From NCBI GenBank assembly GCA_017463325.1, contig JAFTPK010000004.1, positions 1-64,000 on the forward strand: a DNA stretch of 64,000 nt, in the 5' to 3' direction. This stretch comes from Clostridia bacterium (GTDB lineage: Bacteria; Bacillota; Clostridia; Christensenellales; Borkfalkiaceae). The translations under genes were made by a program, and so were the position numbers. The stretch's first letter is position 1. Every line of letters begins with the position of its first letter. This document shows, in pieces, positions 7,525 through 52,193 of this stretch. Under the pieces are notes generated by a model, which was not told where the DNA came from, searched no databases, and saw only the letters and a list, made by a program, of their open reading frames with translations.

Positions 7525-8343
7525 ATGAAAAAAATTACGAAATTCTTTGTAACTGCTTGCGTAGGTCTAACCGTTCTTGGCGCGGCGAGCGGCTGTAATC
7601 GCTACGTTGGCGACTACACGTACGCGCAAAAAAGCTTTATAGAAAGCGGCTCGGGCGAAATTGTTTCCCTTTCGATCGACTACGAAAACGCGGCGATCGA
7701 GGTTAAATTTGACCCGTCCGCGACGGCGGTAAGCGTTTCTTATCCGCAAATGCAAACGAAAAGCGGAAAGGAGCTTTCCGAGGTCACCGTGCGCGAAACG
7801 GCGAATGCATTGACGATTGAAGAAGACACGGATGTTATTTTTAAGCTCGGGGTTGGGATAAACACCCCGGAGGCAAAAATTTCCGTCGTGTTACCTGCCA
7901 CTCGGACGTATGCGCTCGACTTATCGGTAGATAACGGGGCAATTACGTTTTTGGGGGATTCGGCTGCGCTTTCCTCCCTTACAATCGACACGGATAACGG
8001 AGCGATCGCCCTTTCCGCGACGGAGGTAAATGTGGCAGGCAGGGTTGAGATGACGACGGATAACGGCGCGATCAGCGTAGGAAAGCTCACGGCATCCGCT
8101 CTTATGATTGAAACGGACGTGGGGGCGGTTTCGGCGAGCGAGCTTTTTGCACCCGAAGTGACCGTTTCTGTGGACGTTGGCGAGATCGACGTGACTCTTG
8201 CTGGTAAAAAAGAGGAGTGGTCGGTGGTTGCGGAAACGAACGTCGGGGAGAGTAATATTTCCACCAACGTGGATACCGCTCGCCCGTACAAGCTTACCTT
8301 ATCGACGGACGTCGGCGGCATCAAGGCAAACTTTTTAGGCTGA
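7525..8343 (+). CDS. DUF4097-family lipoprotein
   Basis: 272 residues. A signal peptide with a lipobox ends ...LGAASGC, lipidation at about C24, so the protein should be anchored to the outer face of the membrane. The rest is a beta-strand-repeat (DUF4097, adhesin-like) domain: alternating short strands with repeated ID-x-DNGAI, TTDNGAIS and ETDVGAV units (residues about 130-270) that look like a right-handed beta-solenoid. Such proteins often accompany envelope-stress or DUF1700/PspC-type regulators, none of which is seen here. The start is ATG 7525 behind AAAGGAAAAG. It lies 15 nt after the short MITE-like element and could be co-transcribed with the flavoprotein gene. The function is not known. 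Confidence 0.8.
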   Translation: MKKITKFFVTACVGLTVLGAASGCNRYVGDYTYAQKSFIESGSGEIVSLSIDYENAAIEVKFDPSATAVSVSYPQMQTKSGKELSEVTVRETANALTIEEDTDVIFKLGVGINTPEAKISVVLPATRTYALDLSVDNGAITFLGDSAALSSLTIDTDNGAIALSATEVNVAGRVEMTTDNGAISVGKLTASALMIETDVGAVSASELFAPEVTVSVDVGEIDVTLAGKKEEWSVVAETNVGESNISTNVDTARPYKLTLSTDVGGIKANFLG

Positions 8344-8404: not shown

Positions 8405-8518
8405 AAAAAACGCATAAAACGATAACCGCCCCGCAGTCTTACGACTCCGAGGCGGTTACCTATATGATAAGGGGGAAAATGATGAGCTGTTTCAGTTCGG
8501 TTTCCTCAACCGATTTAC
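8405..8518 (-). ncRNA. Candidate small regulatory RNA with a C-rich loop
   Basis: The 317-bp gap 8344-8660 between convergent genes holds no ORF but a complete-looking minus-strand unit. A promoter at 8553-8525 predicts a start near 8518. The RNA then has a hairpin CGGUU-GAGGA-AACCG (8512-8498), a mostly unpaired stretch containing UUUUCCCCCUU (about 8482-8470), and a long hairpin (8457-8424) with AACCGCC/GGCGGUU, an inner AGUC/GACU stem and a GUAA tetraloop. That hairpin is followed by a U-rich tail (AUCGUUUUAUGCGUUUUUUG). No start codon lies in it behind an SD. C-rich single-stranded loops in Firmicutes small RNAs (RsaE/RoxS-like) pair with ribosome-binding sites, so a trans-acting role is plausible. 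It may also terminate spmB transcription. Confidence 0.55.
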
Positions 8519-8524
8519 GAGTAT

Positions 8525-8553
8525 ATTTTATCATATATTTTTCTTCTTGTAAA
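8525..8553 (-). promoter_or_regulatory. Promoter of the candidate small RNA
   Basis: Read on the minus strand: TTTACA (8553-8548), a 17-bp spacer, TAAAAT (8530-8525). The predicted start near 8518 is 7 nt downstream. No gene follows on this strand before the terminator hairpin. Confidence 0.6.
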
Positions 8554-8660: not shown

Positions 8661-9176
8661 CTAAATTACCCGACAAAGCGCGCAGCAAACGATCAACGAA
8701 AGGAAGTAAGCGAGGAGAGAAAAGAAGATCGCGAGGGAAAGTTTTTTTCGTTTAATTCCTGAAAAATAAACGGCGGCGACGTAAAAAACGGTGTCTGAGG
8801 CACCGTAAGCGACGCAGGCGCAACGCGCAACGTAGCTATCTACGCCATACTTTTCAAGTAAGTCGGCGAGCATGGCGATCGAACCGCCGCCAGAGAGCGG
8901 TTTTAACAAAATAAGCCCCGCGATTTCCTCAGGGATCCCAAAAAATCGAAAGGCGGGGGCGAGCAGGGAAAGTAGGTCGTCTTCCAGCCCGCTTGCGCTT
9001 AAAAGCTTGGTGAGAACGGTCACCGCCATCACAAACGGAAAAATGGAAAGAATGAGAGGCGCCGCCCTTGCCGCTCCTTTGGTAAAGCTGTCATAGACTT
9101 TTACTTTCCGCATTGCCGCCAGCGCCAGCGAACCGAGAAAGAGAATGGGAATTACAAAAGAAAACGCCTTGATCAC
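8661..9176 (-). CDS. spmB: Spore maturation protein B
   Basis: 171 residues with about five membrane helices and a nucleoside-recognition ('Gate') domain. Family signatures are present: KGAARAAPLILSIFPFVMAV, LLKPLSGGGSIAMLADLLEK and YGASDTVFYVAAVYF. In Bacillus SpmA and SpmB are needed for spore-core dehydration and heat resistance and act in the mother-cell membrane. The start codon overlaps the stop of spmA by 4 nt (ATGA), so they are translationally coupled. It supports an endospore-forming host or a recent ancestor. Confidence 0.95.
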   Translation of the reverse strand: MIKAFSFVIPILFLGSLALAAMRKVKVYDSFTKGAARAAPLILSIFPFVMAVTVLTKLLSASGLEDDLLSLLAPAFRFFGIPEEIAGLILLKPLSGGGSIAMLADLLEKYGVDSYVARCACVAYGASDTVFYVAAVYFSGIKRKKLSLAIFFSLLAYFLSLIVCCALCRVI

Positions 9177-50062: not shown

Positions 50063-52132
50063 TTATTCTTCCGTTTTTGCCGCTGCGATTACTTTCGCCG
50101 CAAGCTCGGGATTAGACAGCTCCTCGTAGCCCAAAAATTCGGAAACGAATTTCCCGCTACCGCGCGTTAAGGAGCGAAGCTCCATGGTATACGACTTGAT
50201 TTCCGCTTGCGGAACTTCTGCCGTAATGATGGAGGTGGTGCCCTCGGTGTCCGTACCCATGATACGACCGCGGCGTTTATTGATGTCGCCCATAACGTCG
50301 CCGAGGTAATCCCCGGGAACGGCGATCTTTAAACGGTAAACGGGTTCAAGCAGTACGGGTTTCGCGTTTTTAAGCCCTTCTTTATAGGCAAGCGAGGCTG
50401 CCATTTTAAAGGAAAGCTCGTTAGAGTCAACGTCGTGATAGCTGCCGTCGTACAAGGTGGCTTTCAGCCCCGTGACGGGATAGCCTGCAAGCGGGCCTTT
50501 CGCCATGCTTTCTCTCAGCCCTTTTTCTACGGCGGGGAAATAGCTCTTAGGCACCGCGCCGCCAACGACTTCTTCCGCAAATTCAAATTCTTCTTCGCTC
50601 GGCTCGAAACGGATCTTACAATGCCCGTACTGACCGTGGCCGCCCGATTGTTTCTTGTGCTTACCCTCAGCCTCCGCTTTGCCGCGAATGGTTTCTTTAT
50701 ACGCCACCTTGGGTTCGGCAAGCTTGACGTCTACGCCGTAACGGCTCTTGACCTTTTTTGCAAGCAGTTCAAGGTGCGTGTCGCCCTGACCGCCAAGGAG
50801 CAGCTCGCCCGTGGAAACGTTCTTTTCTACGGAGAAAGTGTAGTCCTCTTCGCCGAGCTTGGCAAGTCCCGCAAACACCTTGTCTTCCTCCCCTTTCTTT
50901 TCCGCCGTTACCGCCATAAAAAGGGTGGGCTTGGGGAAGTGAATTGCAGGGAAGAGCACCTTGGCTTTCGCGTCGCAAAGGGTGTCGCCCGTATTCGTCG
51001 CACCGAGCTTGTTCACCGCGCCGATATCGCCCGCGTACAATTCGTCTACCGGCTCCATTTTCTTGCCTTTAAGCACGTATACTTGACCGATACGTTCTTC
51101 CTGTGCGGAGTTAGAATTCCAAACGACGGAGTTGCTCTTTAACGTGCCGCGGAAATTTTTGATATAGGAAAGCTTGCCCGAATAGGGGTCGATCACCGTT
51201 TTAAATACCTGTGCCGCAAGGGGAGCGTCGTCGTCCGCGCCGCGGATTGCAAGTACCTTGTCGTTGGTAAGATCGTCTACGAGGATCTCGCCGCGTTCGC
51301 TTGCCATAGGCATATACGTAACGATTTCGTTTAACAGGTTGATAACGCCGCGGTTTTGGAGGGCAGAGCCTGCCATGACGGGAATGGTGTTGCAGGTCGC
51401 AATACCGACGCGGATCCCGCGAATAGTTTCTTCGCGCGTAAGCTCGCCCGTTTCAAAATATTTATCGAGCAGTACTTCGTCGTTTTCCGCCGCCGTTTCC
51501 GCAAGCTGCGCTTTCATTTCTTCTACCTGCTCTTTCATCTCCTCGGGAATGGGAATTTCGACAGGGCCGTTTTCCTTGAATAAGTACGCTCTTTCCTGCA
51601 AAGCGTTGATACAGCCCTGCATTTTTCCGTTTTCCATGATCGGGATTTGGATAGGTGCAAGCTTAGTGGGGTATTTCGCCTGCAGGGCGCGGACGGTGCC
51701 AAGGTAGTCGGCGTTTTCTTTGTCCATGCCGTTGATGAAAATAATGAGCGGTTTGCCGATCTTCAAACAATAATCAACGATCGTTTCCGCGCCGATCGGT
51801 ACGGTGCCGTTTGCGCCGACAACGAGAAGAGCGCCGCCTGCTGCTCTGAGGCCCGCCGCGCGTTCCCCCTCGAAGTCGTAGAAACCGGGCAGGTCGAGAA
51901 CGTTAATCTTTACGTCTTTCCAGAAAAGATAGGACGCGGACGCGTACACGGACATCTTTTTCGACTTTTCCAGCTCGTCAAAGTCGGAAACGGTGGTGCC
52001 GTCCGTTACCTTGCCCATACGGTCGATCGCGCCGCCGTTAAAAAGCATAGCTTCGCAAAGGGAGGTCTTCCCTTCCCCGCCGTGCCCAACGATCGCAATG
52101 TTTCTGATTTTTTCGCCTTTGATACTGCTCAT
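50063..52132 (-). CDS. EF-G-like translational GTPase paralogue
   Basis: 689 residues with the five-domain layout of EF-G. P-loop GHGGEGKTSL at 16-25, switch I KSKKMSVYASASY near 57-69 (RGITI is replaced), switch II DLPGFYDF at 80-87 (instead of DTPGH), and NGMDKENAD at 134-142 (instead of NKxD). Domain IV carries SGGHGQYGHCKIRFEP and GGAVPKSYFPAVEKGLRE. These changes mark the EF-G-like group that exists beside true EF-G in many bacteria. The loss of the DTPGH histidine suggests altered ribosome-stimulated GTP hydrolysis. It is not in an rps12/rps7 operon. The specific role is unknown. Confidence 0.9.
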   Translation of the reverse strand: MSSIKGEKIRNIAIVGHGGEGKTSLCEAMLFNGGAIDRMGKVTDGTTVSDFDELEKSKKMSVYASASYLFWKDVKINVLDLPGFYDFEGERAAGLRAAGGALLVVGANGTVPIGAETIVDYCLKIGKPLIIFINGMDKENADYLGTVRALQAKYPTKLAPIQIPIMENGKMQGCINALQERAYLFKENGPVEIPIPEEMKEQVEEMKAQLAETAAENDEVLLDKYFETGELTREETIRGIRVGIATCNTIPVMAGSALQNRGVINLLNEIVTYMPMASERGEILVDDLTNDKVLAIRGADDDAPLAAQVFKTVIDPYSGKLSYIKNFRGTLKSNSVVWNSNSAQEERIGQVYVLKGKKMEPVDELYAGDIGAVNKLGATNTGDTLCDAKAKVLFPAIHFPKPTLFMAVTAEKKGEEDKVFAGLAKLGEEDYTFSVEKNVSTGELLLGGQGDTHLELLAKKVKSRYGVDVKLAEPKVAYKETIRGKAEAEGKHKKQSGGHGQYGHCKIRFEPSEEEFEFAEEVVGGAVPKSYFPAVEKGLRESMAKGPLAGYPVTGLKATLYDGSYHDVDSNELSFKMAASLAYKEGLKNAKPVLLEPVYRLKIAVPGDYLGDVMGDINKRRGRIMGTDTEGTTSIITAEVPQAEIKSYTMELRSLTRGSGKFVSEFLGYEELSNPELAAKVIAAAKTEE

Positions 52133-52193
52133 AGTGGTATTCCCCCTGAAATTTAGTCTTTCAACATTCGGCTGTGGCCGTCTGCTTATCTAT

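Follow-up and report, generated by a model that had tools for sequence, protein, structure and literature searches.

What does the cell encode in the short minus-strand gap between a DUF4097 gene (7525-8343), which converges on it, and an spmB-like gene (8661-9176, minus strand; Pfam Gate/nucleoside recognition), its upstream neighbour on the same strand? The question arises from the window analysed here, a stretch of 64,000 nucleotides of contig JAFTPK010000004.1 from a Clostridia bacterium of the Borkfalkiaceae (order Christensenellales), in which a preliminary description had proposed a C-rich small RNA as a self-contained unit of promoter, open linker and terminator, possibly acting in the manner of RsaE/RoxS. 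Comparative genomics matched the self-contained RNA, and makes it probable that the locus is the gene of a trans-acting regulatory RNA, representing a separate family found throughout the Christensenellales and covering the Shine-Dalgarno sequence and start codon of mRNAs.

The sRNA gene (8405-8518, minus strand) follows a sigma-70-type promoter (8525-8553, minus strand) that is conserved in the genus and consists of a -35 box TTTACA (8553-8548), a 17-nt spacer and a -10 box TAAAAT (8530-8525) extended by a preceding TG. The promoter is present as first described, with 10 of 12 consensus letters. Transcription is predicted to start at about 8518. The RNA begins with a 5' hairpin, UCGGUUGAGGAAACCGA (8497-8513, minus strand), which is mostly retained between genera while its letters differ, continues into a single-stranded invariant core, GCUCAUCAUUUUCCCCCUUAUCAUAUAG (8460-8487, minus strand), and ends in an intrinsic terminator (8416-8460, minus strand) made of a hairpin with a GUAA loop (8460-8421) and a first U-run. 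The 5' hairpin, the open C-rich stretch and the long GUAA-capped hairpin with its U-rich tail had all been proposed before, and all of them appear in the predicted fold. There are two U-rich tails, at 8420-8416 and 8411-8405, and the predicted transcript accordingly measures about 104-114 nt: the conserved 3' end lies at about 8415, at the first U-run, giving an RNA of about 104 nt, and the second U-run gives the 114-nt end at 8405. The unit is thus self-contained as claimed, but its conserved form is shorter than the length of about 114 nt first given. Neither strand has a conserved ORF, which agrees with the unit first described as having none.

Several lines of evidence indicate that this structure is not due to chance. 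The stretch 8518-8405 folds at -40.5 kcal/mol (z = -3.8), better than 199 of 200 dinucleotide shuffles. In an alignment of 31 copies from the genus both hairpins covary, with changes on both sides in 11 of 21 pairs (10 of 17 in the terminator helix) and 97.4% of cells paired; none of the covariation measures was reached by any of 500 shuffles. The core is invariant over 25 nt in all 31 copies. An intergenic position without an ORF, a promoter and terminator of its own and a structure kept by compensatory changes are what is expected of a trans-acting, intrinsically terminated sRNA, and all are found here.

The distribution of the RNA is wide and, as far as can be seen, bounded by the order. 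The window's own genome (a 1.66 Mb draft in 25 contigs) holds one copy, and a DNA similarity search recovers the sRNA from 53 of the 57 genus genomes, frequently as two or three copies; another member of the genus, G054, has no detectable copy in an assembly that is 96% complete, a possible natural loss. A covariance model, whose match in the window spans 8415-8518, finds the sRNA in 261 of 301 family genomes and 16 of 18 genera; the preliminary description had made its case depend on the conservation of promoter and hairpins in relatives, and these are conserved. Within the order, 82 of 297 genomes, representing 35 of 125 genera and 9 of 33 families, contain the exact 18-mer ATTTTCCCCCTTATCATA (reversed control, 0), and a scan of 84,980 species genomes yielded at least 119 stretches with the core, in records nearly all labelled Clostridia, Clostridiales, Firmicutes, Borkfalkia, Ornithoclostridium, Pumilibacter or Christensenella; we infer that these carriers are Christensenellales in the GTDB sense. 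One contig labelled Roseburia sp. (L115) also carries the sRNA and is probably a mislabelled MAG. Scans for exact matches favour invariance, and fairer measures are the similarity search of the 57 genus genomes, in which all loci have the exact core, and a search of the family allowing three mismatches, in which most cores have none. Outside the order, a class-wide search with up to three mismatches returned gene starts and chance sites only, without any sRNA-like locus. No family reached the gathering score when the window and 13 relatives were compared with Rfam 15, RsaE/RoxS was absent from the matches up to E 5 for the window's stretch, and the literature searched has no trace of the core sequence or of a small RNA from Christensenellales. 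As far as Rfam 15 and the searched literature show, this is a real and previously uncatalogued sRNA family. Carrier genomes have one to four copies, some of them in tandem; in L031, L056, L116, L128, L192 and L227 the tandem copies lie 0.3-0.9 kb apart with identical cores, and the terminators are near-identical in some pairs and different in others.

The architecture was surveyed in 170 non-redundant sRNA sites, with a RNA length of about 84-125 nt. A good promoter (score of 10 or more) precedes 158 of them, vs 20 with shuffled upstream DNA; every site has a terminator hairpin, 147 form a 5' stem at least as stable as -3 kcal/mol, and the median unpaired probability of the core is 0.87. At nine sites the leader is shorter than 20 nt and the 5' hairpin is absent, so the core and the terminator look like the minimal unit. 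Between genera the letters of the 5' hairpin and the terminator are unrelated, while GCUCAUCAUUUUCCCCCUUAUCAUA is nearly letter-perfect. What the comparison shows is an independent promoter and an unpaired core of 18-25 nt that is invariant, together with a 5' hairpin and an intrinsic terminator hairpin that can each be replaced. As a separate observation, 27 of the 170 sites (shuffled expectation, 0), among them L118, L134, L142, L146 and L252, have the motif AAAACGCTTKACA (AACGCTTKAC) overlapping the -35 box of their sRNA promoter; these sites fall in groups with unrelated terminators, and the overlap is absent from the window's own genus. The motif resembles a repressor operator with a central CG, presumably of the LacI/CcpA family type.

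The reverse complement of the core, UAUGAUAAGGGGGAAAAUNAUGAG, reads as a Shine-Dalgarno sequence, a spacer and a start codon (AAGGGGG-AAAAUN-AUGAG). When the core was searched class-wide with up to three mismatches, 4 sRNAs and 30 other places were found, and at 17 of these 30 an ORF of at least 60 codons begins on the opposite strand, its ATG in exact register with the core, vs 42 of 9000 positions drawn at random from those loci (0.5%); within the family, the same holds for five of eight near-matches outside the sRNA. Because more than half of the near-matches are gene starts in register, the core is antisense to a complete consensus ribosome-binding site, and the action proposed earlier, a C-rich seed against G-rich ribosome sites, thereby gains strong support. 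Individual near-matches include a gene reading as thymidylate synthase in two genomes (L413 and L414, genus g2), which starts with TACGATAAGGAGAAAAATTATGAG, three mismatches from the reverse complement of the core. The core also pairs, at about -20 kcal/mol, with GATAAGGGAGAAAG, which in L167 and L177 precedes the start of a gene resembling that of single-strand DNA-binding protein.

The same core invites a different explanation, namely that it is the binding site of an RNA-binding protein and that the RNA, like 6S RNA or CsrB, serves to titrate or carry a conserved protein, the likeness of the core to a ribosome site being a by-product. Invariance over 25 nt in the genus and 18 nt across nine families exceeds what pairing with drifting mRNAs usually demands, 25 nt is longer than most sRNA seeds, and a single-stranded core with hairpins on both sides would suit a protein. 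This explanation leaves unaccounted for, however, both the exact antisense register to the Shine-Dalgarno sequence, spacer and AUGAG and the complementarity to the mRNA of an EF-G paralogue described below, and we regard it as unlikely, albeit the best of the alternatives. Antisense action at ribosome-binding sites is the reading we prefer: since an unpaired core mirrors the ribosome-binding site, the sRNA probably switches off the translation of chosen genes. The 5' hairpin would protect the end of the RNA, the core would pair with the Shine-Dalgarno sequence (CCCCCUU to AAGGGGG) and the start codon (CUCAU to AUGAG) of an mRNA, and the bound core would exclude the 30S subunit and so repress translation.

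Which genes would be chosen was approached through a target search. The window's genome has no long perfect complementary target, a 16-mer search giving as many matches as its reversed control. Duplex energies were computed for 773 start regions, taken from 0.86 Mb of this genome, and the strongly complementary regions numbered 47, vs a mean of 27 and a maximum of 61 for shuffled cores, an excess that is not significant. In a comparison with a second member of the genus, 11 of 201 orthologue pairs reach -16 kcal/mol or better in both genomes, vs a mean of 3 with shuffled cores, a count attained in none of 150 trials with each of two kinds of shuffle, with weaker results at other cut-offs.

The best candidate target is a gene for an EF-G paralogue (50066-52132, minus strand; NCBIfam NF009381, PRK12740 type), carried beside canonical EF-G. 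The predicted pairing site on its mRNA (52130-52146, minus strand) comprises a GGGGG Shine-Dalgarno sequence (52146-52142) and an AUGAGC start and would pair at -22.2 kcal/mol, through two short blocks of 6 and 8 bp. Such a GGGGG sequence precedes 33 of the 773 genes in the genome sample, and the EF-G paralogue is the single one of the 201 orthologue pairs that has it in both genomes. Among its orthologues, GGGGG is found in 28 of 32 and an AUGAG start in 20 of 32, and on average they pair better with the core than with 399 of 400 flank-shuffled cores (z -3.3; for spmB, z -1.0). Borkfalkia-type genomes have a site of different layout, GATAAGGGaGtacAAAATtATGAGC, that pairs at -23 kcal/mol; in several members of the genus the pairing is weak, at -12 to -14 kcal/mol. 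When 891 start regions of genes near the sRNA in named genomes were ranked by core pairing, three EF-G paralogue genes came 6th to 8th, and two of the five places above them are the sRNA's own antisense strand. These statistics are partly post hoc, the paralogue having been picked as the best of 201, and for this reason and the weak pairing in several members it is a strong candidate rather than a proven target; we infer that its mRNA is the most likely direct target of the sRNA, and further targets with G-rich sites would be likely. In some members of the genus (G009, contig C13, 29041-31960; G045, contig C31, 8156-11265) the EF-G paralogue is followed, 0.8-1.0 kb downstream, by the sRNA. Genes for the EF-G paralogue were also located in other families, both with and without the sRNA.

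The genome-wide energies also bear on the idea that the RNA is a decoy or global modulator, slowing initiation in general through weak pairing of its core with many Shine-Dalgarno regions rather than through particular targets. The core does match the consensus start region, and 90 of the 773 start regions in this partial genome pair at -16 kcal/mol or better, but shuffled cores average 67 of 773 at the same cut-off and one gene, that of the EF-G paralogue, stands out by conservation; a general brake seems slightly less plausible still than a protein-binding site.

In most family genomes the sRNA is found 150-350 nt behind spmB, as a rule on the same strand and sometimes on the opposite one; the association with spmB is conserved within the family only, and in other families the sRNA occurs in other neighbourhoods. 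Since strand and neighbourhood vary, it is an independent gene and not part of the spmAB mRNA. Its frequent same-strand position behind spmB could suggest that it is no more than the terminator or 3' untranslated region of spmAB, or that it terminates two converging genes in both directions, but the sRNA has its own conserved promoter, is found in opposite orientation or elsewhere in many genomes, is most conserved in its open core and lacks a U-run on the plus-strand side, and this reading, rejected on the variation of strand and neighbourhood, is very improbable. Even less credit can be given to a gene for a small protein on the plus strand, where the reverse complement of the core forms a perfect ribosome-binding site followed by ATGATGAGC: a strong Shine-Dalgarno sequence and start codon are indeed present there in all copies, but the antisense frames have a median of 18 codons, frequent early stops and no conserved residue after MS, and it is the minus strand that has the promoter and the terminator. 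A sense or antisense peptide was rejected, as neither strand encodes a conserved one. A dispersed mobile repeat carrying promoter and terminator by chance would account for one to four copies per genome, some in tandem, but hardly for the constant place behind spmB across the family, the covariation or the unrelated hairpin sequences around an identical core, and can be given the same negligible weight.

Among known regulators, the closest in manner of action are RsaE/RoxS of Staphylococcus and Bacillus, trans-acting RNAs of about 100 nt that direct accessible C-rich stretches toward Shine-Dalgarno sequences; RoxS has the C-rich regions CRR1-4, and pairing of the RsaE/RoxS C-rich regions with Shine-Dalgarno sequences has been proposed or shown (PMC4409812). 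The new sRNA likewise has an accessible C-rich stretch complementary to the Shine-Dalgarno sequence. It differs in having, instead of several short C-rich regions, a single C-run per RNA within one continuous 18-25-nt core that spans from Shine-Dalgarno sequence to start codon, in belonging to another bacterial order and in matching no Rfam family in sequence and structure. Given the lack of an Rfam match and the different architecture, it is not RsaE/RoxS itself: of the type first suggested, the mode of action is supported and the membership is not. FsrA, IsrR and other C-rich sRNAs of Firmicutes resemble it in their C-rich seed and in probably acting as repressors at ribosome-binding sites (PMC8216469, PMC9410917), but no sequence relation to them was found in Rfam. 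For the putative target, a biological frame, though not evidence here, is the second EF-G of Bacteroides (fusA2/EF-G2), a colonisation factor activated on carbon limitation via BT4338 (PMC6989115). Control of a second EF-G in gut bacteria would be common to both; control there is by transcriptional activation, and here repression by an sRNA is proposed, and the paralogue scores below the cut-off of the Bacteroides EFG2 model (561 vs 1000 bits).

A 2015 paper described RsaE as the only known trans-acting sRNA besides 6S RNA common to S. aureus and B. subtilis (PMC4409812). A near-invariant sRNA core in nine families of one order of gut bacteria is unusually deep, and the core is an unusually long and old invariant, which supplies a seed, a target hypothesis in the EF-G paralogue and at least one named carrier strain, Pumilibacter intestinalis CLA-AA-M10. 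A more tentative possibility is that the RNA is an ancient cassette, in which an invariant module directed against ribosome-binding sites sits between freely exchanged hairpins in much of the order and, as its central conserved role, may keep the second EF-G silent until it is needed. If this were true, a small RNA would choose which translation elongation factor the cell uses.
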